A stretch of 64,000 nucleotides of DNA from Lunularia cruciata (Eukaryota; Streptophyta; Marchantiopsida; Lunulariales; Lunulariaceae). The notes under the pieces are model-generated. The model did not search any database. It had not been told where the DNA came from and saw nothing but the letters and a program-made list of their open reading frames with translations. Position numbers and translations under genes: made by a program. The first letter of the stretch is position 1. The number at the start of each line of letters is the position of its first letter. Below, piece after piece: positions 3,701 to 62,961 of this stretch. The stretch lies in contig OX419761.1 in NCBI GenBank assembly GCA_948567375.1, forward strand, positions 26,078,243-26,142,242, read 5' to 3'.

Positions 3701-3970
3701 TTGACCTATCAAAGAGACTGATTTCTCAAAGCCAAATCTGACGTAAGTAGCAATACCTCCAAAGCCCCTTCCTTTGTGTTGTCTCCGCTTGTTCCAGGTT
3801 GAACCAACAAGAGTGAATCCTTCAATGTCTTGAATGGTGTTTCCTTCATGTTCCCATGTCTCCACAAGATTGATCAGATCAGCATCATCCCACAAAGGCT
3901 TAGCGCTGGAGTACTTGGTATGTGTGAGCCCATGAACATTCCAAAACAGTACTCTAAAGGTCTGGAATTG
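737..3970 (-). pseudogene. LINE ORF2 (endonuclease-reverse transcriptase), one stop, copy A
   Basis: The frame follows directly after the ORF1 UAG and runs 1,078 codons, the same length as the intact ORF2 copies at 7,039 and 48,222. It encodes an APE-type endonuclease (LVETW, GDFNARI, IDYMLTS, SDHAPLS), a reverse transcriptase (AFIDFRKAFDKV, GVIQGCSLSPTLF, YADDVVLL) and a C-terminal Cys/His cluster (CKLC...EDEHHVFVDCPC). A CAG codon has become TAG at 1,100-1,102, cutting off about the last 120 residues, which include the Cys/His cluster. The first in-frame Met lies far inside the endonuclease domain. Confidence 0.85.
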
Positions 3971-4810
3971 CTATGCAATAGCTGACAATTTCTTTTGAGT
4001 AATCACAGCTCTATTATCTCTCAAGAATGCAACAAAACCTGCTTGTTGAGCCTCCTTCACTTTTGCTAATTCTCCCTTCTTTGCTTGCCATTGGAGAGGT
4101 GTGAGATCAGGGTCCAACCAGATACGGCGCCCCTTTAGTATAGCTTTGTTCCCCATCACTGCATTCCTTTGAGTTTCTGAGCCAAACCTCACCAAAATGC
4201 TTCTTGGTTGTGCACCTTGTTGTCCCAATCTATATGCTTGCAAAATCTGAGGATCATGGACTCTCAAAGAATCAGCAATAAACTCACACACTATGGCCTT
4301 GGTGTCTTCCTTCTCAATCTCAGGCAAACCTGAAATCCTCAAGTTCTTCATTCTCACCAATTGGTTCTCCTTCTCAACCTCATGCTCTTGCAAGTAAGAG
4401 ATTTGAGCCACCTTCGTAGCTTCAGCATATGACTTCATCTTGACCTCTAATGTGTCAACCATCTCTTGCAGCCCTCCATTTTGTGAAGCAATGTTGGTGG
4501 CTTGTGCTCCCAAGGAAGCAACCTTCTTAGTAGCATACACCATACCCTTGGTGGAGTCTAACATCAAATTGCTACTCTTCTTGAGTTCTTGGATATCTAC
4601 GGTGATCGAATTCAGAGATTCTTTCACAGTCAAGACATCAACTCTTACGGTTTGCAAATCTGCCATAAGAGTGTTCATGCATTGAGACATGGGGGCAAAA
4701 AAGCTCTTGAGTTCCTTGTGGAAGTCATTTGCTTTTCTATACATTTCAGCAAGCTGTTGCTGTTTTGAAGCTATCTCATCAATGTCTTGCATCATCTTGG
4801 AAGCTTCCAT
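3971..4810 (-). CDS. LINE ORF1 protein, copy A
   Basis: Intact 279-aa ORF1, starting at ATG (MEASKMMQDI). Residues ~10-130 are rich in E, K, Q, L and M with heptad-like spacing, fitting a coiled coil. Residues ~150-275 (KNLRISGLPE, then AYRLG, RSILVRFGS, GRRIWLDPDLTP, FVAFLRDNRAVI) resemble the RRM plus C-terminal domains of L1-type ORF1 proteins, which bind element RNA as chaperones. It ends in GCA TAG, with ORF2 continuing in the same frame (TAG CAA TTC CAG). The function is inferred from family resemblance. Confidence 0.8.
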   Translation of the reverse strand: MEASKMMQDIDEIASKQQQLAEMYRKANDFHKELKSFFAPMSQCMNTLMADLQTVRVDVLTVKESLNSITVDIQELKKSSNLMLDSTKGMVYATKKVASLGAQATNIASQNGGLQEMVDTLEVKMKSYAEATKVAQISYLQEHEVEKENQLVRMKNLRISGLPEIEKEDTKAIVCEFIADSLRVHDPQILQAYRLGQQGAQPRSILVRFGSETQRNAVMGNKAILKGRRIWLDPDLTPLQWQAKKGELAKVKEAQQAGFVAFLRDNRAVITQKKLSAIA

Positions 4811-13850: not shown

Positions 13851-13922
13851 TAATAGAGTGAGAGAAAAGAAAAGGAAAAAAAAAAAAAATTTGAGAGAAA
13901 AGAAAGATAGTGAGGGGTTAAG

Positions 13923-20637: not shown

Positions 20638-21477
20638 ATGGAAGCTTCCAAGATAATGCAAGACATTGCTGAGATAGCTTCAAAACAACAACAGCTTGCT
20701 GAAATGTATAGAAAAGCAAATGACTTCCACAAGGAACTCAAGAGCTTTTTTGCCCCCATGTCTCAATGCATGAACACTCTTATGGCAGATTTGCAAACCG
20801 TAAGAGTTGATGTCTTGACTGTGAAAGAATCTATGAATTCAATCACCATAGATATCTAAGAACTCAAGAAGAGTAGCAATTTGATGTTAGACTCCACCAA
20901 GGGTATGGTGGATGCTATTGAGAAGGTTGCTTCCTTGGGAGCACAAGCCACCAATATTGCTTCACAAAATGGAGGGCTGCAAGAGATGGTTGACACATTA
21001 GAGGTCAAGATGAAGTCATATGCTGAAGCTACGAAAGTGGCTCAAATCTCTTACTTGCAAGAGCATGAGGTTGAGAAGGAGAACCAATTGGTGAGAATGA
21101 AGAACTTGAGGATTTCAGGTTTGCCTGAGATTGAGAAGGAAGACACCAAGGCCATAGTGTGTGAGTTTATTGCTGATTCTTTGAGAGTCCATGATCCTCA
21201 GATTTTGCAAGCATATAGATTGGGACAACAAGGTGCACAACCAAGAAGCATTTTGGTGAGGTTTGGCTCAGAAACTCAAAGGAATACAGTGATGGTGAAC
21301 AAAGCTATACTAAAGGGACGCCGTATCTGGTTGGACCCTGATCTCACACCTCTCCAATGGCAAGCAAAGAAGGGAGAATTAGCAAAAGTGAAGGAGGCTC
21401 AACAAGCAGGTTTTGTTGCATTCTTGAGAGATAATAGAGCTGTGATTACTCAAAAGAAATTATCAGCTACTGCATAG
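20638..21477 (+). pseudogene. LINE ORF1, one internal stop, copy D
   Basis: Same product as the intact 279-aa ORF1, with TAA at 20,857-20,859 at the same codon as in copy B. The junction GCA TAG CAA TTC CAG into ORF2 is kept. Confidence 0.8.
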
Positions 21478-23954
21478 CAATTCCAGACCTTTAGAGTACT
21501 GTTTTGGAATGTTCATGGGCTCACACATACCAAGTACTCCAGCGCTAAGCCTTTGTGGGATGATGCTGATCTAATCAATCTTGTGGAGACATGGGAACAT
21601 GAAGGAAACACCATTCAAGACATTGAAGGATTCACTCTTGTTGGTTCAACCTGGAACAAGCGGAGACAACACAAAGGAAGGGGCTTTGGAGGTATTGCTA
21701 CTTACGTCAGATTTGGCTTTGAGAAATCAGTCTCTTTGATAGGTCAAGATTCAAGTGGACAATACCAATGGCTGAGGATTGGAGGAGTTGCCACACCTTG
21801 CTTCATTGCTGTTTGTTACTTTGCCCCGTTGACATCACCAATCTATTCAAGTGGACTTCTCAACACCATGCAGCCTTTCCATTCCTTGACGAAGGATGTG
21901 TTAGAGTTTCAAAGTAAAGGTGCAGTCCTTGTTCTTGGTGATTTCAATGCTAGGATCCAAGCCTCTTAGATCCCTGACTTGAGCGACCTTGAGAATGATC
22001 CTTTCCACAGCTTGATAGACCATTCTAGTGCTTGGTCACGCTCTTCCAAAGATCCTATGTCCAATTCCATGAGTGAGTACTTTTTGAGCTTTGGTGCCAA
22101 TTGTAGCTTGAAGATCTTGAATGGCCTTTCTCAATTTCCAGAAACTTGTAAAAGCACATGCTTTGCTTCAGGTGGATCAAGCACCATAGATTATATGCTC
22201 ACTTCAGCTAATGATATCCATCTTGTCTCAGATTTTGCTATTTTAGATCCTCAACCAGAATCAGACCATGCACCTCTATCTTGTACCATCCTTTTTCCAT
22301 GCCTCAATAGAACCACATTACCTATAGACCATGCTTTTAGAGGCAAACTTCGTCTAGATTTTCACAAGAGAGACTTGTACCAACAAGCTATTCAAGAGAA
22401 ATTGAGTTCTATGGAGTGGAGTTCTGATTTTCAACAACGTAGTGATCAATTGATTGAACTTCTTCAATCTACATCAACTTCTTTGTTTCCAAGAGGCTCC
22501 CACAGGAAGAGACTTGGTCTCCCTTGCAATAGGTGGTATGATGCTGATTGCAAAATGGCAAGGATTAAAGCTATGGATAGATCTCTTGGTCAGATTGCAC
22601 AAAATCAAGCCTTTGTTTCATACAGAAAGTTAGTGAAGTGCAAAAAGCGGGCATTTCTAAGACTCAAAGGAGTTGAGTTGAGCACTGAACTGAGGAGCAA
22701 TCCCAAGGCCTTCTGGAAGAAGGTAACCATCAGATCTCCATCTCCATCGCTGGACCTGAATGAGCTTTGTGACTATGTGAAGGATTTGTACTTTTTCCCA
22801 AATGCTCCAAGCATGGCACCTTGCCTTGGATCTACTCTCACCATCTCTGAAGCTGATGTCAAATACCAATTGAAGAAGTTGGCCAATGGTAAGGCTAAAG
22901 ACCTTGATGGACTATGTGTTGAACTTCTGAAGTGGGGCAGTAGCCAGCTGATTCCAGTACTCACTTCTCATTTGAATGAGGCAATCAAGTGTGGCTTTCC
23001 GGATAGATGGTGCTTCAAGAAGGTAGTTCCTGTTCACAAGTCTGGCCAGAGAGATGTTGTCACCAATTACCGTACCATACTTGTTGGTAGTGTCTTTGCC
23101 AAGTTGTATGGTTGAATTTTGGAGTCAAGGTTGAGCACTTGGGCTGAAAAGCACAAAATTTGAGCTAAGTGCCAAGCTGGTTTCAGATCAGGCTTTAGTA
23201 CTTTGGACCACCTATTAAGACATGGTGGCAAAAGGTGGAGAAAGTTCAGAAATTGTTTTTGTGTGATGAACTTGGGGTGAGGACTCAAACTCCTTATGTA
23301 TTGCTGCTTGCTGAAACCGGGTTTTTGCCTCTTGAGGCTGAAGCTTTGTTTTTAGCTATCACATATGCCACTAAGGTGAGGTCCATGGAGCATGAGAGAC
23401 TTCCCTACCAAGCTTTTTGTGCCACTCTATCTGTCGGTTGGTATACAGATCTGGTTGCATGGGCCACCAGGTGGAATGTTTGTGAGCGACATTGGAAGTT
23501 GGAGCCTATTGCACTACGAGAAGTGATCAAGGAGCAGTTTTTACTTCACTTATGGCAGCAACCCGGTACCAAGATGGTGTTCTATCAGCAGTTTGTAAAT
23601 CCTATGTTGGTGTATTGTGAGCAAGATTATCTCTTGGCTAGGATTTCTACTTCACTTAGACATGTTATCGCTCAATATAGAACTAGTTCTCATAGACTAG
23701 AAGTAGAACAAGGACGTTGGCAGCAGATAGAGCACTCCATGCGACTTTGCAAATTGTGTATTATGAGCAAAGTTGAGGATGAGCATCATGTGTTTGTTGA
23801 TTGCCCTTGTTACATGCAGATTAGAGTTAGACATCAGATTACTTGCAGTGACTTCTCAACTCTCTTACAGGTTGAAGCTTTAGCATTAGGGAAGTACATG
23901 ACAGAAGTTACTTTACATCGGACCAATTTGTTACAAATTGGTCCGATGCCCTAG
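21478..23954 (+). pseudogene. LINE ORF2 remnant, copy D
   Basis: Endonuclease and N-terminal RT are readable, with stops at 21,967-21,969 (CAG to TAG) and 23,113-23,115 (CGA to TGA). A large internal deletion at about 23,215 removes RT motifs including YADD. The last 239 codons (23,235-23,954) are open. Confidence 0.8.
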
Positions 23955-27700: not shown

Positions 27701-27950
27701 TTTCTCAAAGCCAAATCTGACGTAAGTAGCAATACCTCCAAAGCCCCTTCCTTTGTGTTGTCTCCGCTTGTTCCAGGTTGAACCAACAAGAGTGAATCCT
27801 TCAATGTCTTGAATGGTGTTTCCTTCATGTTCCCATGTCTCCACAAGATTGATCAGATCAGCATCATCCCACAAAGGCTTAGCGCTGGAGTACTTGGTAT
27901 GTGTGAGCCCATGAACATTCCAAAACAGTACTCTAAAGGTTTGGAATATG
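24716..27950 (-). pseudogene. LINE ORF2, one stop and one base insertion, copy E
   Basis: Endonuclease, RT and Cys/His domains are all present. An extra base lies just after the ORF1 stop (TAG CAT ATT CCA), which puts ORF2 out of frame with ORF1. CAG to TAG lies at 25,817-25,819, inside the region after YADD. The length is 3,235 bp against 3,234 in intact copies, as expected for one inserted base. Confidence 0.8.
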
Positions 27951-28790
27951 CTATGCAGTAGCTGATAATTTCTTTTGAGTAATCACAGCTCTATTATCTC
28001 TCAAGAATGCAACAAAACCTGCTTGTTGAGCCTCCTTTACTTTTGCTGAATCTCCCTTCTTTGCTTGCCATTGGAGAGGTGTGAGATCAGGGTCCAACCA
28101 GATACGGCGTCCCTTTAGTATAGCTTTGTTCCCCATCACTGCATTCCTTTGAGTTTCTGAGCCAAACCTCACCAAAATGCTTCTTGGTTGTGCACCTTGT
28201 TGTCCCAATCTATATGCTTGCAAAATCTGAGGATCATGGACTCTCAAAGAATCAGCAATAAACTCACACACTATGGCCTTGGTGTCTTCCTTCTCAATCT
28301 CAGGCAAATCTGAAAGCCTCAAGTTCTTCATTCTCACCAATTGGTTCTCCTTCTCAACCTCATGCTCTTGCAAGTAAGAGATTTGAGCCACCTTCGTAGC
28401 TTCAGCATATGACTTCATCTTGACCTCTAATGTGTCAACCATCTCTTGCAGCCCTCCATTTTGTGAAGCAATGTTGGTGGCTTGTGCTCCCAAGGAAGTA
28501 ACCTTCTCAGTAGCATCCACCATACCCTTGGTGGAGTCTAACATCAAATTGCTATTCTTCTTGAGTTCTTGGATATCTCCAGTGATCGAATTCAGAGATT
28601 CTTTCACAGTCAAGACATCAACTCTTACGGTTTGCAAATCTGCCATAAGAGTGTTCATGCATTGAGACATGGGGGCAAAAAAGCTCTTGAGTTCCTTGTG
28701 GAAGTCATTTGCTTTTCTATACATTTCAGCAAGCTGTTGTTGTTTTGAAGCTATCTCAGCAATGTCTTGCATCATCTTGGAAGCTTCCAT
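27951..28790 (-). CDS. LINE ORF1 protein, copy E
   Basis: Intact 279-aa ORF1 (MEASKMMQDIAEIASKQQQ), with the same coiled-coil and RRM-like layout as copy A. A few substitutions (for example RLSDLPE for RISGLPE) mark it as drifting. Confidence 0.78.
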   Translation of the reverse strand: MEASKMMQDIAEIASKQQQLAEMYRKANDFHKELKSFFAPMSQCMNTLMADLQTVRVDVLTVKESLNSITGDIQELKKNSNLMLDSTKGMVDATEKVTSLGAQATNIASQNGGLQEMVDTLEVKMKSYAEATKVAQISYLQEHEVEKENQLVRMKNLRLSDLPEIEKEDTKAIVCEFIADSLRVHDPQILQAYRLGQQGAQPRSILVRFGSETQRNAVMGNKAILKGRRIWLDPDLTPLQWQAKKGDSAKVKEAQQAGFVAFLRDNRAVITQKKLSATA

Positions 28791-29850
28791 TCTAAAATTT
28801 CTAACAGATACTATGAGAATGTATCCTCTGGTTCACTCACACTCTGTGAACACCAATAGCTCTACACCAAAAATCAACTCCTTTGGACTTGTAAATCAAA
28901 AGTTATAAACTTTTGAATTTGAGTTTTTCCTACATGAAAATTTTGAAATCTTACAGATTTTGAAAATTCATAACCTTGGCTATAGTACTTTAAAATCTAC
29001 AATAGGTGACTCAATCAAAAGCTCTTGAGAAATTCTATCCAATGAATCAAAAATGAAGTCATTTGAGCCAATAGACATGAAGTTATGGCCTCTAGAGTTC
29101 TCTATGGTAAACTTCTAAACCTCATTGAATCACAGAATTCAAATGCTCATAACTGCAAGCACAAAGCTTTAAATTCTATGAAATGAATTTCAATCAATAG
29201 CTCTTGACAAGATGCTTCTAATGAGTCCAAGATCACCTCATTTGAAGATGCGAGTCCAAAGTTCCAGCCTCTAAAAGTTGCAGATTTGAGCACCACCAAC
29301 CGCACAAGAACAAAGATTGATGAATTTCGAAACTTCTTCCACAGAACTCCAACTTCAGCAACCATGAATTCAAAAGAAAGCCCTCTCACAGCTGTTTCCA
29401 ATGAGTCCAAGATTGAAAGATTTGGACATGGAACCAAAAAGTTACAAGGTGTTGAAAATTGAGCTCAAACCCTAAAATCTCCGAGAGATGGCAGAATTCG
29501 AATCTTCATAACTTTCTTTGTGTATGTGCTCTGCAAGCCAGCCTAGTATCAATCGAAAGAGCTTCCAAAGGCGCTTCCAATGCCACAAAAATCACTCCAT
29601 TTGGACACCATATGATGAAGATTCGAACTCTCAAGTCTAGCTCCTGTGTCAGAAATTTCAATCACTCATAACGTTTCGCACAAAGCTCAGAATGACACAA
29701 TCTTGGTGGCTATGTCAAGGTCCTGGCAAGGCGCTTCGAACGAGACCAAAACCGCAACGTTTGGACATGTATGTAGGGAGATATGGCTTCTCAAACTTTC
29801 GGGACTCCTCTCCTCTCAAACTTTCGAAACTCCACTCTCGTTGGTTCAAC
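28791..29850 (-). repeat. LINE 5' UTR of ~180-bp monomers, copy E
   Basis: Minus-strand array equivalent to 19,598-20,637 and of about the same length, ending at the element's 5' terminus. Confidence 0.75.
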
Positions 29851-37700: not shown

Positions 37701-38166
37701 GTCAATGGGGCAAAGTAGCAAACAGCAATGAAGCAAGGTGTGGCAACTCCTCCAATCCTCAGCCATTGGTATTGTCCATTTGAATCTTGACCTATCAAAG
37801 AGACTGATTTCTCAAAGCCAAATCTGAAGTAAGTAGCAATACCTCCAAAGCCCCTTCCTTTGTGTTGCCTCCGCTTGTTCCAAGTTGACCCAATAAGAGT
37901 GAAACCTTCAATGTCTTGAATGGTGTTTCCTTCATGTTCCCATGTCTCCACAAGATTGATCAGATCAGCATCATCCCACAAAGGCTTAGCGCTGGAGTAC
38001 TTGGTTTGTGTGAGCCCATGTACATTCCAAAACAACACTCTAAGGGTCTGGAATTGCTATGCAACAGCTGACAATTTCTTTTGAGTAATCACAGCTCTAT
38101 TATCTCTCAAGAATGCAACAAAGCCTGCTTGTTGAGCCTCCTTCACTTTTGCTAATTCTCCCTTCT
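34718..38166 (-). mobile_element. 5'-truncated LINE copy M
   Basis: Tail (ttcattg)3, 3' UTR, full-length ORF2, the UAG junction (38,057-38,059) and the last ~36 codons of ORF1. It is truncated at 38,166, next to fragment N. Confidence 0.85.
34823..38056 (-). pseudogene. LINE ORF2, one stop, copy M
   Basis: 3,234 bp, the standard ORF2 length. AAG to TAG at 36,812-36,814 (SNPKAFW, stop, VTIRSP) is the only break. Endonuclease (GDFNARI, SDHAPLS), RT (YADDVVLL) and Cys/His cluster (CKLCIMSKVEDEHH) are intact on either side. Confidence 0.82.
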
Positions 38167-39009: not shown

Positions 39010-41355
39010 AGGAAGTTTCGAAAGTTTGAGAGGAGAGGAGTACTAAAAGTTTGAGAAGCCATATCTCCGCACATACATGTCTAAACGTTACGGTTTTGGT
39101 TTTTTTTGAAGCGCCTTGCCAAGACCTTTCCAAAGCCACCAAGATTGTATCATTCTGAGCTTTGTGCGAAACGTTATGAGTGATTGAAATTTCTGACACA
39201 GGAGCTACACTTGAGAGTTTGAATCTTCATCATATGGTGTCCAAATGGAGTGATTTATGTGGCATTGGAAATGCCTTTGGAAGCTCTTTCTATTGATACC
39301 AAGCGCGCTTGCAAAGTACATACACAAAGAAAGTTATGAAGATTCGAATTCTGCCATCTATCGGAGATTTTAGAGTTTGAGCTCAATTTTCAACACCTTG
39401 TAACTTTTTGGTTCCATGTCCAAATCTTTCAATCTTGGCCTCATTGGAAACAGCTGTGAAAGTGCTTTCTTTTGAAAACCTGTTTGCTGAAGTTGGAGTT
39501 CTGTGGAAGAAGTTTCGAAATTCATCAATCAGTGTTCTTGTGCGATTGGTGGTGCTCAAATCTACAACTTTCAGAGGTTGGAACTTTGGACTTACATCTT
39601 CAAATGAGGTGATCTTGGTCTCATTAGAAGCATCTTGTCAAGAGCTATTGATTGAAGTTGATTTAATAGAATTTGAAGCTTTGGGCTTGAAGTTATGAGC
39701 ATTTGAATTCTGTGATTCAATGAGGTTTAGAAGTTTACCATAGATAACTCTAGAGGCCATAACTTCATGTCTATTGGCTCAAATGAGTTCATTTTTGATT
39801 CATTTGATAAAATTTCTCAAGAGCTTTTGATTGAGTTATCACATTGTAGCCAAGGTTATGAATTTTTAAAATCTGCAAGACTTCAAAATTTTCATGTAAG
39901 GAAAACTCAAATTCAAAAGTTTGTAACTTTTGATTTACAAGTCCAAAGGAGTAGAATTTTGGTTCATGAGAAAAAGTAATTGTAGAGCTATTGGTGTTCA
40001 CAAATCTTGAGTGAACAAGAGGATACATTCTCATAGTATCTGTTAGAACTTTTAGAATGGAAGCTTCCAAGATAATGCAAGACATTGCTGAGATAGCTTC
40101 AAAACAACAAGAGCTTGCTGAAATGTATAGAAAAGCAAATGACTTCCACAAGGAACTCAAGAGCTTTTTTGCCCCCATGTCTCAATCCATGAACACTCTT
40201 ATGGCAGATTTGCAAACCGTAAGAGCTGATGTCTTGACTGTGAAAGAATCTCTCAATTCGATCACCGTAGATATCCAAGAACTCAAGAAGAGTAGGAGTT
40301 TGATGTTAGATTCCACCAAGGGTATCGTGGATGCTACTAAGAAGGTTGCTTCCATGGGAGCACAAGCCACCAACATTGTTTCACACAATGGAGGGCTGCA
40401 AGAGATGGTTGACACATTAGAGGTCAAGATGAAGTCATATGCCGAAGCTACGAAGGTGGCTCAAATCTCTTACTTGCAAGAGCATGAGGTTGAGAAGGAG
40501 AACCAATTGGTCAAAATGAAGAACTTGAGGATTTCAGGTTTGCCAGAGATTGAGAAGGAAGACACCAAGGCCATAGTGTGTGAGTTTATTGCTGATTCTT
40601 TGAGAGTCCATGATCCTCAGATTTTGCAAGCATATTGATTGGGACAACAAGGTGCACAACCAAGAAGCATTTTGGTGAGGTTTGGCTCAAAAACTCAAAG
40701 GAATGCAATGATGGGGAACAAAGCTATACTAAAGGGGTGGCGTATCTGGTTGGACCCTGATCTCACACCTCTCCAATGGCAAGCAAAGAAGGTAGAATTA
40801 GCAAAGGTGAAGGAGGCTCAACAAGCAGGTTTTGTTGCATTCTTGAGAGATAATAGAGCTGTGATTACTCAAAAGAAATTGCCAGCTACTGCATAGCAAT
40901 TCCAGACCCTTAGAGTGTTGTTTTGGAATGTTCATGGTCTCACACATACCAAGTACTCCAGCGCTAAGCCTTTGTGGGATGATGCTAATCTAATCAATCT
41001 TGTGGAGACATGGGAACATGAAGGAAGCATCATTCAAGACATTGAAGGATTCACTCTTGTTGGTTCAACCTGGAACAAGCGGAGACAACACAAAGGAAGG
41101 GGCTTTGGAGGTATTGCTACTTACGTCAGATTTGGCTTTGAGAAATCAGTCTCTTTGATAGGTCAAGATTCAAGTGGACAATACCAATGGCTGAGGATTG
41201 GAGGAGTTGCCACACCTTGCTTCATTGCTGTTTGTTACTTTGCCCCGTTGACATCACCAATCTATTCAAGTGGAGTTCTCAACACCATGCAACCTTTCCA
41301 TTCCTTGACAAAGGATGTGTTAAAATTTCAAAGTAAATGTGAAGTACTTGTTTAG
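39010..41355 (+). mobile_element. 3'-truncated LINE copy O
   Basis: Complete 5' UTR from GGAAGTTTCGAAAG, then ORF1 with one stop, the UAG junction at 40,894-40,896 and 146 further codons of endonuclease before it breaks off at FQSKCEVLV. Copy P starts immediately afterwards. Confidence 0.82.
40057..40896 (+). pseudogene. LINE ORF1, one internal stop, copy O
   Basis: 279-codon frame with AGA to TGA at 40,636-40,638 (LQAY, stop, LGQQ). The C-terminal part (RSILVRFGSKTQ, WLDPDLTP) and the GCA TAG CAA TTC junction remain. Confidence 0.8.
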
Positions 41356-45870: not shown

Positions 45871-45975
45871 TTTGCACCGTTCACACCATTGATTCTTGGA
45901 TTTTTTTTTTTTTCGAAGGTTTGAGAGAGGAGATTTTCCCGAAAATTCAGAAACTCATATCTCAGCACTTGCTCA

Positions 45976-47381
45976 TCCAAACCTTTCGATTTTGGTCTCG
46001 TTTGAAGCGCCTTGCCAAGAGCTTTCCATGGACACCAAGAATGCACGATTCTGAGCCTTGTTGCGCAAGTTATGGGTACTTGAATTTTCTGACACAGGTT
46101 CAATATTTGAGAGTTCGTTTCTTCATCACCAGGAGTCCAAATTGAGTGATTTTTATGGCATTGGATGCGCCTTGAAGAGCTCTTTCGATTGATATAAAGC
46201 ATGCTGGAAACCCACATCTGTGCAGAGAGTTACAAGGATTCGAATTCTGTCATCTTGGGCAGATTTTAGGGTTTGGACTATCAATTCGAATGACTGTATC
46301 TCTGCCACTACTTGGACAAATGGAGTGATTGAAGTCTCATTAGAAGCGCTATGCTGAGAGCTTTCTTTCAAGGTAAAGCTTGTCCAGTTTGGAGCAGTAC
46401 TCAGGGAGATCTGGATTTTTCAATTCTGAGAAAGTTTTGAGTAGTCCTTGTTATTGTGCGAGAATTGGAAAGGCTATTGCTCTGTGGTCACAAGTGCAAA
46501 TCCAGTGAAAGTTGCTGCATCAGAATCTATGATTTCCAAGCTCTCTTTCAAGGCCAAGCTCGCAGCACATGGAGGTCTGAGCAAGCAGTGGTGGTAATTC
46601 TCATTCTGTCACATCTCGTGCATCTTGGTGTTTGGAGTACCAACTTTGCAGTGCCAGTTCTCCTCACTCACAGATCCAATCTAGGTGATTCTTGAGTCAT
46701 AAGAACCACATGGTCATAGGCTTTCTATTAAGTCCATACTTGAAAGATTTGGATATCCAACGCAGATGATATGACCATTTGTTTCACTGTAGCACTTGCA
46801 ACTACATGGTGTTAAAATCTGCACATGTGAAGTAGGATTGCTCTGTACTTATAGGTCCAAATCAAGTGGTTTTTGTGGCAATAGAACAAGCATTGTGCAA
46901 GGTTTCTATAGAGTTTTGATTTGTAGAAATTGAAGGTCAGATAAGGAAGTTGTGATAGTTTTAAATCTGTGACTCTTTGGACATCATAACATTGTGAAGT
47001 GCAAATTCAAGCTATTGTATCTTTGTACTCAATGATCCAAATGAAGTGATCTTTGTGTCTTTAGAATCAGCTCCCTCAGACCTTTAGACTGAAAATTGAT
47101 TGCTATAGGTTAGGTCACAAATTAGAAGCTCTAGGTCCCTCAAATTTCGCAGCCTTTGGTATCTATGTGCACTGCAGATTTGAAAGATAGTATCTTTGCA
47201 CTCACATATTCAAATGAGATGATTCTTATCTCATTAGAATTAGTTTTTCAAGGTCTTTATTTCAACACCAGCCTAGTAGTGCTTATTGTAAAACAGTAGT
47301 GCTACCTACTTGAAAATCCTAAAGTTTTGGTGTTGGAAGTAAAACTTCCAGATTGACCGTGAGTGATAAGTGATTGTCACA
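45976..47381 (+). repeat. LINE 5' UTR: eight ~180-bp monomers, copy R
   Basis: Core starts near 45,976, 46,136, 46,315, 46,495, 46,675, 46,856, 47,036 and 47,209. Spacings are 160, 179, 180, 180, 181, 180 and 173. ORF1 begins where a ninth core would fall. Confidence 0.87.
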
Positions 47382-48221
47382 ATGGAGGAGTCCAAGATGG
47401 TGAAAGACATTGCTGATATAGCCATGAAGCAACAACAATTAGCTGAAATGTATAGGAAAGCAAATGATTTCCACAAGGACCTTAGAAGCTTCATGGCACC
47501 TATGTCCCAGTGCATGAGTACTCTCATGACTGATATGGAATTTGTAAAGGTTGAGATCAGTAGTGTCAAAGAGTCTTTGAACCTAGTCAATCAAGAGATT
47601 CAAGACCTCAAGAAGAGTTCTATCTCTTTGTTAACATCAACCAAGGGGATGGTTGATGCTACCGAGAAAGTTGCTTCCTTGGGAGCACAAGCCAACGATA
47701 TTGCTACACAAGGCGGAGGGCTCCAACAGATTGTGGACACATTAGAAGTGAAGATGAAGTCTTATGCTGAAGCTACTAAGGTGGCTCAAATCTCTTGCTT
47801 GCAAGAGCATGAGGTTGAGAAGGAGAACCAATTGGTCAAAATGAAGAACTTGAGAATTTCAGGTTTGCCAGAGACTGAGAAGGAAGACACCAAGGCCATA
47901 GTATGTGAGTTTATTGCTGATTCTTTGAGAGTCCATGATCCTCAGATTTTGCAAGCATATAGATTGGGACAACAAGGTGCACAACCAAGAAGCATTTTGG
48001 TGAGGTTTGGCTCAGAAACTCAAAGGAATACAGTGATGGATAGCAAGGCTATACTGAAGGGGCGGCGTATTTGGTTGGACCCTGATCTCACACCTCTCCA
48101 ATGGCAAGCAAAGAAGGGAGAATTAGCAAAAGTGAAGGAGGCTCAACAAGCAGGTTTTGTTGCATTCTTGAGAGACAATAGAGCTGTGATCACCCAAAGG
48201 AAGTTGTCAACTACCGCATAG
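47382..48221 (+). CDS. LINE ORF1 protein, copy R, intact
   Basis: 279 aa from ATG (MEESKMVKDIADIAMKQQQ). The N-terminal half (residues ~10-135) is diverged from the other copies but keeps the coiled-coil character. The C-terminal half from ~residue 140 (KNLRISGLPETEKED, AYRLG, RSILVRFGSETQ, RRIWLDPDLTP) is nearly identical to them. The frame ends GCA TAG at 48,219-48,221 and runs straight on into ORF2. It is probably an RNA-binding chaperone of the element RNP. Confidence 0.85.
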   Translation: MEESKMVKDIADIAMKQQQLAEMYRKANDFHKDLRSFMAPMSQCMSTLMTDMEFVKVEISSVKESLNLVNQEIQDLKKSSISLLTSTKGMVDATEKVASLGAQANDIATQGGGLQQIVDTLEVKMKSYAEATKVAQISCLQEHEVEKENQLVKMKNLRISGLPETEKEDTKAIVCEFIADSLRVHDPQILQAYRLGQQGAQPRSILVRFGSETQRNTVMDSKAILKGRRIWLDPDLTPLQWQAKKGELAKVKEAQQAGFVAFLRDNRAVITQRKLSTTA

Positions 48222-51200
48222 CAATTCCAGACCCTTAGAGTGTTGTTTTGGAATGTTCATGGTCTCACACATACCAAGTACTCAAGCGCTAAACCTGTGT
48301 GGGATAATGCTGATCTGATCAATCTTGTGGAGACATGGGAACACGAAGGAAACACCATTCAAGACATTGAAGGTTTCATTCTTGTTGGTTCAACTTGGAA
48401 CAAGCGGAGGCAACACAAAGGAAGGGGCTTTGGAGGTATTGCAACTTACGTCAGATTTGGCTTTGAAAAGTCAGTCTCTTTGATAGGTCAAGACTCAAGT
48501 GGACAATACCAATGGCTGAGGATTGGAGGAGTTGCTACACCTTGCTTCCTTGCTGTTTGTTACTTTGCCCCATTGACATCACCAATCTATTCAAGCGGAT
48601 CTCTCAACACCATGCAGCCTTTCCACTCCTTGACAAAGGATGTGTTGGAATTTCAAAGTAAAGGTGCAGTATTTATCCTTGGTGATTTCAATGCTAGGAT
48701 CCAAACCTCTCAGATTCCTGAGTTTAGTGACCGTGAGAATGACCCTTTCCATAGCTTGATAGATCATTCTAGTGCTTGGTCCCGCTCTTCCAAAGACCTC
48801 ATATCCAACTCCATGAGTGAGCACTTTTTGAGCTTTGGTACCAATTGTAGCTTGAAGATCTTGAATGGCCTTTCTCAATTTCCAGAAACTTGTAAGAGCA
48901 CATGCTTTGCTTCAGGTGGATCCAGCACTATAGATTATATGCTCACCTCACCCAGTGATATACACATTGTCTCAGATTTTGTTGTTTTAGATCCTCAACC
49001 TGAATCTGACCATGCACCTTTATCTTGTGTCATCCTTCTTTCTTGCCTCAATAGAACCACATTACCTATTGATCATGCCTTTAGAGGGAAACTCCGTCTT
49101 GATTTTCACAAGCGAGATTTGTACCAACAAGCTATCCATGAGAAATTGAGCTCTATGGAGTGGAGTTCTGATTTTCAACAACGCAGTGACCAGTTGGTTG
49201 AACTTCTTCAATCTACATCAACAACTCTATTTCCACGAGGTTCTCACAGGAAGAGACTTGGTCTCCCTTGCAATAGGTGGTTTGATGCTGATTGTAAAAT
49301 TGCAAGGATGAAAGCTATGGATAGGTCTCTTGATCAGATTGCACAAAATCAGGCTTTTGTCTCTTATAGAAAGTTGGTGAAGTGCAAGAAGCGAGCGTTC
49401 TTGAGACTCAAGGGGGTTGAGTTGAGCAATGAATTGAGGAGCAATCCCAAGGCTTTTTGGCAGAAAGTAACCATCAGATCTCCATCTCCATCGCTAGACC
49501 CGAACGAGCTTTGTGAATATGTGAAGAATCTGTATTTTTTCCCTGATGCTCCAAGCATGGCACCTTGCCTTGGATCTGCTCTCACCATCTCTGAAGCTGA
49601 TGTCCACTACCAATTGAAGAAGTTGGCCAATGGTAAGGCTGAAGACCTTGATGGACTATGTGTTGAACTACTTAAGTGGGGTGGTAGCCATCTGATTTCA
49701 GTACTCACTTCTCTCTTGAATGAGGCCATCAGGTGTGGTTTTCCTGATAGATGGTGCTTCAAGAAGGTTGTTCCTATTCACAAGTCTGGTCAGAGAGATA
49801 TTGTCACCAATTACCGTACCATTCTAGTGGGTAGTATCTTTGCCAAGTTGTACGGTCGAATTTTGGAGACTAGGTTGAGTACTTGGGCTGAAAAGTACAG
49901 AATTCGAGCTAAGTGCCAAGCGGGTTTCAGATCAGGCTTTAGTACTTTGGATCATCTATTGGTACTCCATGTTTTGTGGTGGAAATCTAAAGGTGTTGGG
50001 AGAGCTCTCTATGTTGCATTTATTGATTTCAGGAAGGCCTTTGATAAGGTGCTTAGGAAATCATTAAGTGAGAGACTCATGGAAGTTGGTGTTTCAGCCG
50101 ATCTGATTGGTGCTATCTCTAGACTCTATGAGAAGGTGGTTGTGAAACTTTCATCTTTGAGCTCTCAAGATGTCCTTAGCACAATGGGTGTGATTCAAGG
50201 TTGCTCTCTATCCCCAACATTGTTTGGAATCTTCATCGATGATCTAGAGAGGGTGCTCATGGAAGCTGGAGCTACAGGTGTACAAGTTGGCTCTTTGATG
50301 ATACATGCACTACTGTATGCGGATGATGTAGTGCTCCTCTCACCCAATCCACAAAGTTTACAGAAGTTGTTGGATTCTCTTCTCTTGTTTTGCAATCAAA
50401 CAAAGATGGAGGTGAACCTTGACAAGTCCAAGGTGATGGTGGTGGGTTCTAAAGGTGTCACACCTTTCTCTTTCGACGGACAGCAATTGGAGCAGGTTTC
50501 TTCTTACAAGTACTTGGGCCTTGAGTTTTCTCATGACTATAGTTGGTCTACTTGTGTGAAGATGAGAATCAATGCAGGCTTTAGAGCTTTGTATTCACTC
50601 ATGAATCGCTCTAGACTTGCTCACCTTGCCACATTGGAGTTGAAGAAGGTGCTGTTCAGATCTCTTGTGCAGCCGGTGGTTCTCTATGGTGCTCAGATTT
50701 GGGGTCCAGGTACTAAGAAGACATGGTGGCAAAAGGTGGAGAAAGTTCAGAAATTGTTTTTGTGTGATGAACTTGGGGTGAGGACTCAAACTCCTTATGT
50801 ATTGCTGCTTGCTGAAACCGGGTTTTTGCCTCTTGAGGCTGAAGCTTTGTTTTTAGCTATCACATATGCCACTAAGGTGAGGTCCATGGAGCATGAGAGA
50901 CTTCCCTACCAAGCTTTTTGTGCCACTCTATCTGTCGGTTGGTATACAGATCTGGTTGCATGGGCCACCAGGTGGAATGTTTGTGAGCGACATTGGAAGT
51001 TGGAGCCTATTGCACTACGAGAAGTGATCAAGGAGCAGTTTTTACTTCACTTATGGCAGCAACCCGGTACCAAGATGGTGTTCTATCAGCAATTTGTAAA
51101 TCCTATGTTGGTGTATTGTGAGCAAGATTATCTCTTGGCTAGGATTTCTACTTCACTTAGACATGTTATCGCTCAATATAGAACTAGTTCTCATAGACTA

Positions 51201-51455
51201 GAAGTAGAACAAGGACGTTGGCAGCAAATAGAGCACTCCATGCGACTTTGCAAATTGTGTATTATGAGCAAAGTTGAGGATGAGCATCATGTGTTGATTG
51301 TTTGCCCTTGTTACATGCAGATTAGAGTTAGACATCAGATTACTTGTAGTGATTTCTCAACTCTCTTACAAGTTGAAGCTTTAGCGTTAGGGAAGTACAT
51401 GACCGAGGTTAGTTTACATCGGACCAATTTGTTACAGATTGGTCAGATGCCCTAG
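48222..51455 (+). CDS. LINE ORF2 polyprotein (APE endonuclease + RT), copy R, intact
   Basis: 1,077 codons after the UAG, starting QFQTLRVLFWNVHG, with no ATG before about codon 130. Catalytic Glu in LVETW (~37), GDFNARI (~153), SDHAPLS (~260), RT AFIDFRKAFDKV (~598), GVIQGCSLSPTLF (~655), YADDVVLL (~698) and a Cys/His cluster CKLC...EDEHH...CPC (~1,009). All key residues are present. There is no RNase H domain. The RT motif QGCSLSPTLF differs from the RQGDPLSP usual in plant L1 elements. Confidence 0.88.
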   Translation, partial: QFQTLRVLFWNVHGLTHTKYSSAKPVWDNADLINLVETWEHEGNTIQDIEGFILVGSTWNKRRQHKGRGFGGIATYVRFGFEKSVSLIGQDSSGQYQWLRIGGVATPCFLAVCYFAPLTSPIYSSGSLNTMQPFHSLTKDVLEFQSKGAVFILGDFNARIQTSQIPEFSDRENDPFHSLIDHSSAWSRSSKDLISNSMSEHFLSFGTNCSLKILNGLSQFPETCKSTCFASGGSSTIDYMLTSPSDIHIVSDFVVLDPQPESDHAPLSCVILLSCLNRTTLPIDHAFRGKLRLDFHKRDLYQQAIHEKLSSMEWSSDFQQRSDQLVELLQSTSTTLFPRGSHRKRLGLPCNRWFDADCKIARMKAMDRSLDQIAQNQAFVSYRKLVKCKKRAFLRLKGVELSNELRSNPKAFWQKVTIRSPSPSLDPNELCEYVKNLYFFPDAPSMAPCLGSALTISEADVHYQLKKLANGKAEDLDGLCVELLKWGGSHLISVLTSLLNEAIRCGFPDRWCFKKVVPIHKSGQRDIVTNYRTILVGSIFAKLYGRILETRLSTWAEKYRIRAKCQAGFRSGFSTLDHLLVLHVLWWKSKGVGRALYVAFIDFRKAFDKVLRKSLSERLMEVGVSADLIGAISRLYEKVVVKLSSLSSQDVLSTMGVIQGCSLSPTLFGIFIDDLERVLMEAGATGVQVGSLMIHALLYADDVVLLSPNPQSLQKLLDSLLLFCNQTKMEVNLDKSKVMVVGSKGVTPFSFDGQQLEQVSSYKYLGLEFSHDYSWSTCVKMRINAGFRALYSLMNRSRLAHLATLELKKVLFRSLVQPVVLYGAQIWGPGTKKTWWQKVEKVQKLFLCDELGVRTQTPYVLLLAETGFLPLEAEALFLAITYATKVRSMEHERLPYQAFCATLSVGWYTDLVAWATRWNVCERHWKLEPIALREVIKEQFLLHLWQQPGTKMVFYQQFVNPMLVYCEQDYLLARISTSLRHVIAQYRTSSHRLEVEQGRWQQIEHSMRLCKLCIMSKVEDEHHVLIVCPCYMQIRVRHQITCSDFSTLLQVEALALGKYMTEVSLHRTNLLQIGQMP

Positions 51456-51567
51456 GCCCTTGCCTAGGCTCACATTTCATGTGTTTTGTATTGTGTTTCT
51501 AGCCTTTTGACTCTTTGGGTCTTTCAGGCTTTATATTTCATTGTTTCATTGTTTCATTGTTTGTTTC

Positions 51568-53856
51568 ACTTTGAAACTCTAACACATCCTTCGTCAAGGA
51601 ATGGAAAGGCTGCATGGTGTTGAGAAGTCCACTTGAATAGATTGGTGATGTCAACGGGGCAAAGTAACAAACAGCAATGAAGCAAGGTGTGGCAACTCCT
51701 CTAATCCTCAGCCATTGGTATTGTCCACTTGAATCTTGACCTATCAAAGAGACTGATTTCTCAAAGCCAAATCTGATGTAAGTAGCAATACCTCCAAAGC
51801 ACCTTCCTTTGTGTTGTCTCCGCTTGTTCCAGGTTGAACCAACAAGAGTGAATCCTTCAATGTCTTGGATGGTGTTTCCTTCATGTTCCCATGTCTCCAC
51901 AAGATTGATCAGATCAGCATCATTCCACAAAGGCTTAGCGCTGGAGTACTTGGTATGTGTGAGCCCATGAACATTCCAAAACAGCACTCTAAAGGTCTGG
52001 AATTGCTATGCAGTAGCTGATAATTTCTTTTGAGTAATCACAGCTCTATTATCTCTCAAGAATGCAACAAAACCTGCTTGTTGAGCCTCCTTCACTTTTG
52101 CTAATTCTCCCTCCTTTGCTTGCCATTGGAGAGGTGTGAGATCAGGGTCCAACCAGATACGGCGCCCCTTTAGTATAGCTTTGTTCCCCATCACTGCATT
52201 CCTTTGAGTTTCTGAGCCAAACCTCACCAAAATGCTTCTTGGTTGTGCACCTTGTTGTCCCAATCTATATGCTTGCAAAATCTGAGGATCATGGACTCTC
52301 AAAGAATCAGCAATAAACTCACACACTATGGCCTTGGTGTCTTCCTTCTCAATCTCAAGCAAACCTGAAATCCTCAAGTTTTTCATTCTGACCAATTGGT
52401 TATCCTTCTCAACCTCATGCTCTTGCAAGTAAGAGATTTGAGCCACCTTCGTAGCTTCAGCATATGACTTCATCTTGACCTCTAATGTGTCAACCATCTC
52501 TTGCAGCCGTCCATTTTGTGAAGCAATGTTGGTGGCTTGTGCTCCCAAGGAAGCAACCTTCTCAGTAGCATTCACCATACCCTTGGTGGAGCCTAACATC
52601 AAATTGCTACTCTTCTTGAGTTCTTGGATATCTATGGTGATTGAATTCAGAGATTCTTTCACAGTCAAGACATCAGCTCTTACGGTTTGCAAATCTGCCA
52701 TAAGAGTGTTCATGCATTGAGACATGGGGGCAAAAAAGCTCTTGAGTTCCTTGTGGAAGTCATTTGCTTTTCTATACATTTCAGCAAGTTGTTGTTGTTT
52801 TGAAGCTATCTCAGCAATGTCTTGCATCATCTTGGAAGCTTCCATTCTAAAAGTTCTAACAGATACTATGAGAATGTATCCTCTGGTTCCCTCACACTCT
52901 GTGAACACCAATAGCTCTACACCAAAAATCAACTCCTTTGGACTTGTAAATCAAAAGTTACAAACTTTTGAATTTGAGTTTTTCCTATATGAACATTTTG
53001 AAATCCTACAGATTTCCAAAATTCATAACCTTGGCTACAGTAATTCAAAATCTACAAGTGATGACTCAATCAAAAGCTCTTGAGAAATTTTATCCAATGA
53101 ATCAAAAACGAACTCATTTGAGCCAATAGACATGAAGTTATGGCCTCTAGAGTTATCTATGGTAAACTTCTAAACCTCATTGAATCACAGAATTCAAATA
53201 CTCATAACTTCAAGCACAAAGCTTCAAATTCTATAAAATGAATTTCAATCAATAGCTCTTGACAAGATGCTTCTAATGAGTCCAAGATCACCTCATTTGA
53301 AGATGTAAGTCCAAAGTTCCAGCCTCTGAAAGTTGTAGATTTGAGCACCACCAATCGCACAAGATCACAAATTGATGAATTTCGAAACTTCTTTCACAGA
53401 ACTCCAATTTCAGCAAGAATTCAAAAGAAAGCCCTCTCACAACTGTTTCCAATGAAACCAAGATTGAAAGATTTGGGCATGGAACCAAAAAGTTACAAGG
53501 TGTTGAAAATTGAGCTCAAACCCTAAAATCCCTGAGAGATGGCAGAATTAGAATCTTCATAAATTTCTTTGTGTATGTGCTGTGCAAGCCCGCCTAGTTT
53601 CAATCAAAAGAGCTTCCAAAGGCGTTTCCAATGCCACAAAAATCACTCCATTTGGACACCATATGATAAAGATTCGAACTCTCAAGTCTAGCTCCTGTGT
53701 CAGACATTTCAATCACTCATAACGTTTCGCACAAAGATTAGAATGACACAATCTTGGTGGCTATGGAAAGGTCTTGGCAAGGCGCTTCGAACGAGACCAA
53801 AACCGCAACGTTTGGACATGTATGTAGGGAGATATGGCTTCTCAAACTTTCGAAAC
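51568..53856 (-). mobile_element. LINE copy Q/S, left half (endonuclease start, ORF1, 5' UTR)
   Basis: Continues copy Q/S across copy R. Endonuclease N-terminus, UAG junction (52,006-52,008), intact ORF1 and a 5' UTR of ~180-bp monomers to ~53,856 (TTTCGAAACTCC on the plus strand). Confidence 0.82.
52006..52845 (-). CDS. LINE ORF1 protein, copy Q/S
   Basis: Intact 279-aa ORF1 from the ATG at 52,845 (MEASKMMQDIAEIASKQQQ). The frame is open upstream of this ATG, but the MEAS start is shared by the other copies. Same domains as copy A. Confidence 0.78.
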   Translation of the reverse strand: MEASKMMQDIAEIASKQQQLAEMYRKANDFHKELKSFFAPMSQCMNTLMADLQTVRADVLTVKESLNSITIDIQELKKSSNLMLGSTKGMVNATEKVASLGAQATNIASQNGRLQEMVDTLEVKMKSYAEATKVAQISYLQEHEVEKDNQLVRMKNLRISGLLEIEKEDTKAIVCEFIADSLRVHDPQILQAYRLGQQGAQPRSILVRFGSETQRNAVMGNKAILKGRRIWLDPDLTPLQWQAKEGELAKVKEAQQAGFVAFLRDNRAVITQKKLSATA

Positions 53857-60504: not shown

Positions 60505-62961
60505 CTATGTTGGAACACCAGCACATTTTACCTGTGATCCGGGGGGAAGTCGACCAAGACCTGGTAGAATGACCTTAAAGCTCCTTGGCATGGGGTTTGG
60601 GTCATAGTTAAAGCCCGTCAACAGCATACCTGCAACCAGAGCAATGATTTAACGAGGTATACCAACACAATATAATCGTTATGGTCTGAATCCTGACTAG
60701 TCAAACTGCTTCTATTGGTTTCTTAGACAATAAACCAGACCAGATGTTTCTTTATATATTTATATATATTTATGTACTGTCATGATTGCGGGAAGGACGG
60801 CAATACCATATACACATAATGCACATAATGCACATAATGCTTACCATGGCTGGCAACACCCAGCACTTCTGCAGGGGGGATGTTGGCGACAAAAAGCACT
60901 TTCTTCCCTACAGCATCTTCAACATCCATGACGTACTTGCATTCAGACACCACTATCCTCTCCTCGCATCCAATGTCAACCTACGGAAGGAAATAGCGTA
61001 AGAACATAGAAACTTGGGTCATACTGTATTCCCAATCAACAATAACCACTGCATAATAAAATGAGTCAGCCCCGATACTTTAAGTTACCTATAACCCACT
61101 AACCAACAGTACAGACTCGCTCCAGAAATGACCACAGGTGCTTGAGTAGTTCTGGACTACTCATGCACCTATGGTAAGTACATAACATATTTAAGGTGCA
61201 GGACAAAGACTAAAACAAAGAGCTGCTCTATAAATACATCTCGATCGAAGCTACACCTGTGAACTATTTTAGCGCTATTATATTGTTTCAGGAAAAGTGT
61301 AATGATGCGTATGGTGTCTTTCCGAATCGGTCCTGCATAAATTGCAAATACGAGATATCCTGTGCTGCTTGAAATGCGCTTAAACGGCCACCACGCATAC
61401 CAGTCGGAGACAGGAGATGGAAGTAAAAATGTGATCACATATTTAGAACTGGTATAATCTGAAAAGCTCAGTCAATATGAACGAGTAGAAAAGAAAAGAA
61501 AAGAAAAGAATAATACATATAAATGTATACACCCGAAGGAAAGGGGAACGGAGTACAAGGTGCAAGAGCGCAAGGTCCAAGAGTCCCAAGTAACCAAGAA
61601 AGAAACAAAATGAACGGTAGCAGTCTTCAAAGTTAATCAACTAGAGAAACGACGCTTATTTCTGTTCTTCAAGATTTCTTTGTACCATAGACATGTCGAG
61701 GACAAAAGGCATCTAATGTGTTTCGACGAAGGACGCACTGTTCGCATGAGATTTTCCAAAAAGTGTGGCTGCTGGGATTCGAGCCCAGGTCTCCACGGCC
61801 ACAACGTGGAATTCTCACCACTAAACTACAGCCACATCTTACGTGAACGTTTCAAACCAACTTATATATAGAATAAGATCAGAGTACGATGCCTTACGGT
61901 AAGCTGAAGGTGCTTCCGACTCCTTGTTGGCACCCCTCTCTTCGCTGACATCTCAGGATCGTGCACGGCTTTCGCATCTGTCTGCACTTTATCCACAATT
62001 CCATATCATACAGGAAAGAAAACTCACTCCTTGTAAGGATGGTATCAAAGTGTACGCTGGACCCAGAATAGAAAACCCTCGTGCAAAAAGATAAAAACAC
62101 CTAGCTTTTCTTGCTCGAAGATATTCAAGAATTGACAGTTCACAATCTACTGATTTTCGAAGAAGTGGGGAATCCGGAAAGTATGCTTGCTGGAATTCGA
62201 CATCCTACACACATGAATTTCATAAGGAGACGAGGACCGCTACTCACGATCAATCCGACCCGGATGTCCAAAGTTTCGAAGGTTGAGACATCGACTTCTG
62301 CCTTCACGGCCGGGCAAGCTGTGCGACTGACCGCTACTTCTGCTGTCTCTTGATGGCTCCTAATTAGGGCGGTTCTCCTTGTTGATTGCCTATCGGTAGT
62401 TTTCTCTGAAGCGATTACGAAGAGAAAAGATTGAATGGGAAGGAGAGAGATAAATACTTGGTAACAGTTACCCGCAGCGGGAAACGTTAATTGAAAACTG
62501 AAGTTTCTTGTTCATTTCACAAAAGGTGAGCAAAGACGAGCAATCATGTCAAAAAACTATCCAGATCAACAACCTCGTAACCTGGTAAGTCGTTGTTCAC
62601 GCTTGACAAATTCGAAAAAAGATATTCAAATAAAAGTCACCAGCTACAAAAGCATCACAGACCCTGTTTGCTGTTTCAAACGAAGCTCCATGTTCTGCAG
62701 CTATCCGTGCGTAGCTCTCATTTTGTTTTATGGAGTAGCTTGTTCGAGAGCATCCAACTCCAAATAATCCTCAAACAAGCTAAATTTCTCTTCTCATAAT
62801 TCACATAGGAGTAGCTTACCTGCGGAAAACTTGCAAGAAGGTCCCTGGAAAGAAGAGCCCCAGCTGCAATTGGCACCAACCGTTGGCTCCTTACGGTTCT
62901 TTCCAACTACAGGAGAAGCTAACAAGTTACAATACACCACACCACATTGGATTGTCGCCAT
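60505..62961 (-). CDS. Organelle-targeted tRNA-binding OB-fold protein (CsaA/EMAPII-like), five exons
   Basis: Exons on the minus strand: 62,961-62,820, 62,405-62,248, 61,981-61,898, 60,980-60,845 and 60,629-60,505. All four introns are GT-AG (donors GTAAGC, GTGAGT, GTAAGG, GTAAGC), all phases agree, and 645 coding bases give 214 aa plus stop. The start is MATIQCGVVYCNLLASP in a strong context (GCGATGG). Residues 1 to ~85 are Ser/Thr/Arg-rich and low in acid, like a plastid or mitochondrial presequence. The tRNA_bind-type OB fold follows: FETLDIRVGLI, then KHLQLTVDIGCEERIVVSE, VGKKVLFVANIPP, VLGVASHGMLLTGF, ending LPPGSQVKCAGVPT. The KHLQLTVDIG spacing is closer to CsaA/YgjH than to the EMAPII HPxADKL type. 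Likely role: tRNA or RNA binding in an organelle. The exon structure is read from sequence only. Confidence 0.85.
61764..61835 (-). tRNA. tRNA-His (GUG)
   Basis: 72 nt on the minus strand. Acceptor GTGGCTG pairs with CAGCCAC and A is the discriminator. A box TAGTTTAGTGG, anticodon arm CCACG-TTGTGGC-CGTGG with anticodon GTG, T arm CTGGG-CTCGAAT-CCCAG. It has no intron. TTTTT follows two bases after the discriminator as Pol III terminator. The sequence is of the land-plant nuclear type as I recall it. It lies inside the third intron of the OB-fold gene, same strand. Confidence 0.97.

Follow-up and report, generated by a model that had tools for sequence, protein, structure and literature searches.

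A LINE retrotransposon in the 64-kb window (the whole stretch of DNA analyzed) encodes its two proteins in one reading frame divided by a single UAG. We estimate at roughly 60% the probability that its ORF2 enzyme is produced by readthrough of this stop codon, an explanation that we favor over re-initiation. Under the proposed mechanism, most ribosomes would terminate at the UAG that closes ORF1, yielding an RNA-binding protein. A minority, aided by the following CAA UUC, would decode the UAG and stay in frame, giving an ORF1–ORF2 fusion that bears endonuclease and reverse transcriptase. How LINEs synthesize a second protein from one mRNA has been settled for few elements. If true, readthrough would mean that the LINE class with an L1-like ORF1 can use the gag–pol strategy of retroviruses; it predicts an ORF1–ORF2 fusion protein and would be a case of a type I leaky stop encoded in the nuclear DNA of a plant. 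According to a 2009 paper, the plant cases of readthrough verified by experiment until then came from viruses, and Gypsy elements of rice were candidates (PMC2754532).

Nested copies of this LINE family crowd the window. Both ORFs were seen intact, in one frame and with a single UAG between them, only in the copy named here 48219 after the first base of its junction stop. In the 7036 copy, ORF2 is intact but ORF1 contains an internal stop. The features of the 48219 copy are as follows.

47382..48221, plus strand: ORF1, 279 amino acids plus UAG, L1-like ORF1 protein (open frame; profile of 12 ORF1s matching L1 ORF1p)
48219..48227, plus strand: junction UAG of the intact copy with the adjoining CAA UUC, the proposed leaky stop (five of six bases matching CARYYA)
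48222..51455, plus strand: ORF2, 1077 amino acids, AP-like endonuclease and reverse transcriptase (Pfam), with no AUG before codon 131
48231..48257, plus strand: ORF2 residues 4–12 (TLRVLFWNV), first strand of the endonuclease in an AlphaFold2 model
48243..48245, plus strand: ORF2 codon 8, UUG in this copy, the best alternative near-cognate start
48612..48614, plus strand: ORF2 codon 131, the first in-frame ATG
51453..51455, plus strand: terminal UAG of ORF2, with GCC next and, four codons later, another UAG in frame

We searched the window for the junction GCATAGCAATTCCAG (GCA-UAG-CAA-UUC-CAG), allowing up to three mismatches, and obtained seven matches, all of them exact. At the same tolerance, shuffled sequences gave a mean of 2.44 matches and reached seven in 2 of 100 cases; the weight of the matches lies in their exactness and homologous setting, not in their number. 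An earlier note on this DNA had described seven such junctions with ORF2 in the same frame as ORF1 and one further copy with an extra base at 27,951, and both observations were borne out. In the eighth junction (TAG at 27951–27953, minus strand), one T is inserted after UAG-CA (CATATTCC), which puts this copy out of frame, and a stop follows six codons later. Outside the 48219 copy (exact match at 48216, plus strand), the junctions are these.

3962..3976, minus strand: exact junction; ORF1 open, ORF2 interrupted after 956 amino acids
7033..7047, plus strand: exact junction; ORF2 intact (1077 amino acids), ORF1 with an internal stop
21472..21486, plus strand: exact junction; open frame of ORF1 limited to 206 codons, stop in the ORF2 frame at codon 164
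38048..38062, minus strand: exact junction; 5'-truncated ~107 nt ahead of the UAG, stop in the ORF2 frame at codon 414
40891..40905, plus strand: exact junction; open frame of ORF1 limited to 86 codons, stop in the ORF2 frame at codon 153
51997..52011, minus strand: exact junction; ORF1 open, ORF2 truncated (match ending in the endonuclease region)
27938..27953, minus strand: junction with a single base inserted behind UAG-CA, which shifts ORF2 out of the ORF1 frame

The element is a two-ORF LINE with an L1-like ORF1. ORF2 contains the AP-like endonuclease and reverse transcriptase of an L1-type LINE (Pfam RVT_1, E = 1.8e-28; Exo_endo_phos, E = 9.1e-12; both above the cut-off). In a PDB search with ORF2, R2 proteins scored up to 85.6 bits versus 68 bits for L1 ORF2p, a ranking by score that is not a tree and that, on sequence similarity, does not favor L1. 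ORF1 begins in the context ACAATGG. A single-sequence Pfam scan of ORF1 alone found no family, and 12 ORF1s scanned against Pfam gave no LINE ORF1 family among the matches listed, so the assignment to L1 derives from a profile of those 12 ORF1s. This profile matched solved L1 ORF1p structures (2ldy, E = 8.1e-5; 2yko, E = 8.9e-5; also 2ykp and 2w7a; range to 3.5e-4), which identifies an ORF1 of the L1 kind with an RRM and a C-terminal domain. The top row of the same search, 7rdr (E = 1.3e-11), is a designed-looking repeat protein that scored through seven weak repeats and was judged spurious.

The surroundings of the intact copy show further features. Its presumed 5' UTR (45871–47381) contains degenerate direct repeats that are 62–86% alike and mostly spaced at 160–180 nt or double that distance; Tandem Repeats Finder reported no repeats in 45871–47381. 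These repeats could be promoter-type monomers. Near the 3' end of the LINE, at 51535–51565, short TTTCATTG-like repeats take the place of a plain poly(A), and the inverted 5' part of another LINE copy starts at 51565. Elsewhere in the window, a Gypsy-type element (13914–18749) encodes gag, protease, reverse transcriptase, RNase H and integrase in one 1611-amino acid frame ending in TAG. A tRNA-His (GTG) at 61763–61835 on the minus strand is the sole tRNA in the window according to ARAGORN and Rfam.

The absence of an early start codon in ORF2 is central to the argument. Consistent with the earlier note, which had placed no AUG before about codon 130, all seven exact copies reach their first in-frame AUG at codon 131 (the 3973 copy being read from its translation), 393 nt past the ORF1 stop and behind the first endonuclease strand and Glu37. 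The motifs WNVHG and VETWEH precede this codon and contain, by ORF2 numbering, Asn11 and Glu37, which we take to be catalytic residues of the endonuclease. On the reading frames of these copies, an AUG start without splicing is excluded for a complete endonuclease. Purifying selection acts on this AUG-less part: when the intact ORF2s of the 48219 and 7036 copies are compared, codons 1–130 differ by 17 synonymous changes on 87 sites versus 10 nonsynonymous changes on 303 (dS 0.227, dN 0.034, dN/dS 0.15; Fisher P = 2.6e-6). Because of this selection, codons 1–130 are almost certainly translated. Two related proteins at ~50% identity, P0030 and P0031, also keep the N-terminal part and are listed with the starts MWN and MLVWN, in which the first M may be AUG or GUG; these starts fit relatives that likewise lack an upstream in-frame start.

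Splicing could in principle remove the UAG from a subgenomic mRNA encoding ORF2. Three Riccia sorocarpa gene models (P0018, P0032 and P0035) do fuse ORF1-like and ORF2-like parts past the junction, presumably through predicted introns. They exit ORF1 at differing places, however, and lack the first endonuclease strand, for which reasons they look like annotation workarounds. Moreover, the unspliced junction is kept in 8 of 8 copies in the window, although a subgenomic mRNA need not leave copies. We consider splicing very improbable. Internal ribosome entry, or another non-AUG start independent of ORF1 termination, would also fit an ORF2 without an early AUG. Across codons 1–44, near-cognate codons present in 7 of 7 exact copies are 8 (UUG or CUG), 19 (AAG), 33 (AUC) and 36 (GUG). 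The last three are available for such a start, but they fall behind the endonuclease residue Asn11, which only codon 8 precedes. As no other sequence sign of internal entry and no unusual structure near the UAG was seen, this route too appears highly unlikely.

The main alternative is that ribosomes terminate at the UAG and then restart at a non-AUG codon, most plausibly codon 8, to make a separate ORF2 protein; we regard this as unlikely. Such termination–re-initiation is used by, or proposed for, other LINEs (SART1 and mammalian L1; PMC5972666), and every one of the seven exact copies carries UUG or CUG at codon 8, with a G at −3; the preceding codon 7 reads GUG in four copies and GUA in the other three. 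Leucine codons are, however, often YUG by chance, and SART1 has a stop–start overlap, unlike this LINE, which has no AUG there. The listed starts of P0030 and P0031 could represent GUG or AUG near the codon-8 site, but may instead reflect the choice of a gene caller. A start at codon 8 would also remove half of the first endonuclease strand, which spans residues 4–12 in a weak AlphaFold2 model built on an alignment of five sequences (mean pLDDT 50; mean 69 for residues 1–10), and would leave the W at position 3. If this weak model is right in beginning the strand at residue 4, almost every residue after the UAG is needed. In the solved exodeoxyribonuclease 5cfe, which the profile matches weakly (E = 0.0057, with 0.46 for the best stretch), the W is at position 6, and four residues precede SWN versus two before WN for a codon-8 start. 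Codons 1–7 are the part that separates readthrough from codon-8 re-initiation, and they are too few to decide: codons 1–8 carry one synonymous and one nonsynonymous change between the 48219 and 7036 copies, so that selection cannot show whether codons 1–7 are translated.

The shared frame is a further point in favor of readthrough. ORF1 and ORF2 lie in the same frame with nothing but the UAG between them, an arrangement that readthrough would explain; re-initiation would not require the shared frame, which by itself has a chance of about one in three. Readthrough needs no non-AUG start, which re-initiation in the ORF2 frame would. Of the earlier proposal that ORF2 is made by stop readthrough, the premises of one frame, one UAG, no AUG and a near-type I context are borne out; from these and the selected N terminus we infer readthrough itself.

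We then compared the stop context with known leaky signals. The sequence UAG-CAA-UUC agrees with the CARYYA consensus at five of six positions, as the earlier note had stated, and falls short of the full six bases at +9, where C replaces the consensus A. Counting both strands and the junctions themselves, 49 of the 1,860 TAG triplets in the window (2.6%) match CARYYA at five or more of six positions. At the 48219 junction, the UAG is in addition followed by an in-frame extension under selection. Judged by its sequence, the junction is a good if imperfect leaky context of type I. Transient plant reporters gave 32% readthrough with the tobacco mosaic virus (TMV) context and 11% with that of BNYVV, according to PMC2754532; the junction differs from the consensus at +9. 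In the TMV reporter of the same source, readthrough was abolished by adding a base 3' of the stop or by changing the +4 C to G (PMC2754532). The 27953 copy, with its insertion 3' of the UAG, is not intact.

The lack of a stimulatory RNA structure counts against readthrough, although the type I signal is described as needing no such element. No stable structure stood out on either side of the UAG in six folds (z −0.24 to 1.49), and downstream stem-loops of the type II/III kind, sought in five stretches from four of the eight copies with a program without pseudoknots, were no better than in shuffles (z −0.24 to 0.53). We also considered reassignment of UAG to an amino acid in the host, and rejected it. 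ORF2 itself ends at a UAG in a different context (GCC) with a second UAG four codons later, an indication that UAG is a real stop here; the Gypsy frame ends at UAG as well.

Conservation of the motif was rejected as proof of readthrough. The earlier note had suggested checking whether the UAG and bases +4 to +9 are more conserved than their flanks; within the window they do not exceed the background, because the copies are young. Five of the seven exact copies lie within 1.5–4.1% of each other over 1.26 kb, and the 48219 copy is 11–12% away from the other junction copies, figures that disregard the 5'-truncated 38059 copy, for which the list of invariant runs is meaningless upstream of about −107. 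Among the seven exact copies, over 502 nt, windows as invariant as the junction are common (28% of the 165 in-frame windows of 9 nt and 6% of the 162 of 18 nt). By length, the 18-nt invariant run that covers the junction ranks sixth among those listed. These counts, like those for codon 8, used seven of the eight copies, leaving out the 27953 copy. The seven junction copies should not be taken as seven independent witnesses.

Divergence of the 48219 copy is uneven along its length. Relative to the 27953 copy (27951–28832, minus strand), dS is ~0.99 in the first half of ORF1; relative to the 7036 ORF2 (7039–10272), it is 0.43 in codons 131–450 and 0.11 in codons 801–1077. This pattern suggests that one of the subfamilies is a mosaic or arose through recombination.

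Beyond the window, 18 protein relatives of ORF1 were found, nine from Marchantia polymorpha and five from Riccia, which makes a liverwort, or a plant near to the liverworts, the most probable host; one of the protein searches scored the best 8,000 of its candidates. Eleven of the 18 were aligned, with P0005–P0007, P0009, P0011, P0012 and P0018 left out, and showed 31–60% identity to ORF1, the partial Marchantia models being highest. Ten of these 11 match the end of ORF1 within one column, and by eye the end is alike in 14 of the 18, with P0011, P0012, P0016 and P0018 deviating. The shared C-terminal end implies that the position of the ORF1 stop is old; the Marchantia polymorpha and Riccia ORF1-like sequences were compared at the protein level. 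At the DNA level, no relatives of the LINE were found in the viral contigs, genome contigs, phages or plasmids scanned, the plasmid query being the first 493 residues of ORF2. We tentatively extend the proposal, at somewhat less than even odds: a LINE of land plants whose ORF1 is L1-like would make its endonuclease–reverse transcriptase solely as a readthrough fusion, through a tobamovirus-like UAG kept across liverwort LINE families. If true, such fusion-only readthrough would set how much enzyme is made for a given amount of RNA-binding protein, as in gammaretroviruses.

Several known systems share parts of this arrangement. The type I UAG of tobamoviruses and benyviruses is likewise followed by CAA UU, and their polymerase is produced by extending the protein encoded upstream; these are RNA viruses with A as the last base of the motif, whereas here a retrotransposon has C. 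The soybean Sirevirus SIRE1, Candida Tca2 and murine leukemia virus (MuLV) are retroelements with two frames and one in-frame stop between them (PMC2194720, PMC2829016), but are LTR elements or a retrovirus rather than LINEs. SIRE1 has been cited as using stop codon suppression, MuLV readthrough is described as using a purine spacer and a pseudoknot, and Tca2, with the same look, failed in a yeast readthrough reporter (PMC2194720). Mammalian L1 and silkworm SART1 are two-ORF LINEs like the present one, the ORF1 of which matches L1 ORF1p by profile. For these, PMC5972666 reports termination–re-initiation as proposed across a 63-nt spacer in L1 and as observed at an overlapping stop–start in SART1. 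An AUG of the SART1 or L1 type at or soon after the ORF1 stop is absent here, the nearest in-frame one being that of codon 131. In the open-licence PMC literature, no plant LINE with UAG readthrough was found among the matches listed. A close parallel comes from Paramecium, a ciliate that uses a different genetic code. For its Group 3 LINEs, which belong to a distinct LINE clade, readthrough of the ORF1 stop was proposed from consensus sequences (PMC5405496); as here, ORF1 and ORF2 share one frame across the ORF1 stop, a likeness of arrangement. The strategy that the earlier note had called unusual for a LINE is indeed unusual, but not unprecedented: readthrough has already been proposed for LINEs, and the plant LINE would vary a form of recoding already known rather than establish a new one.
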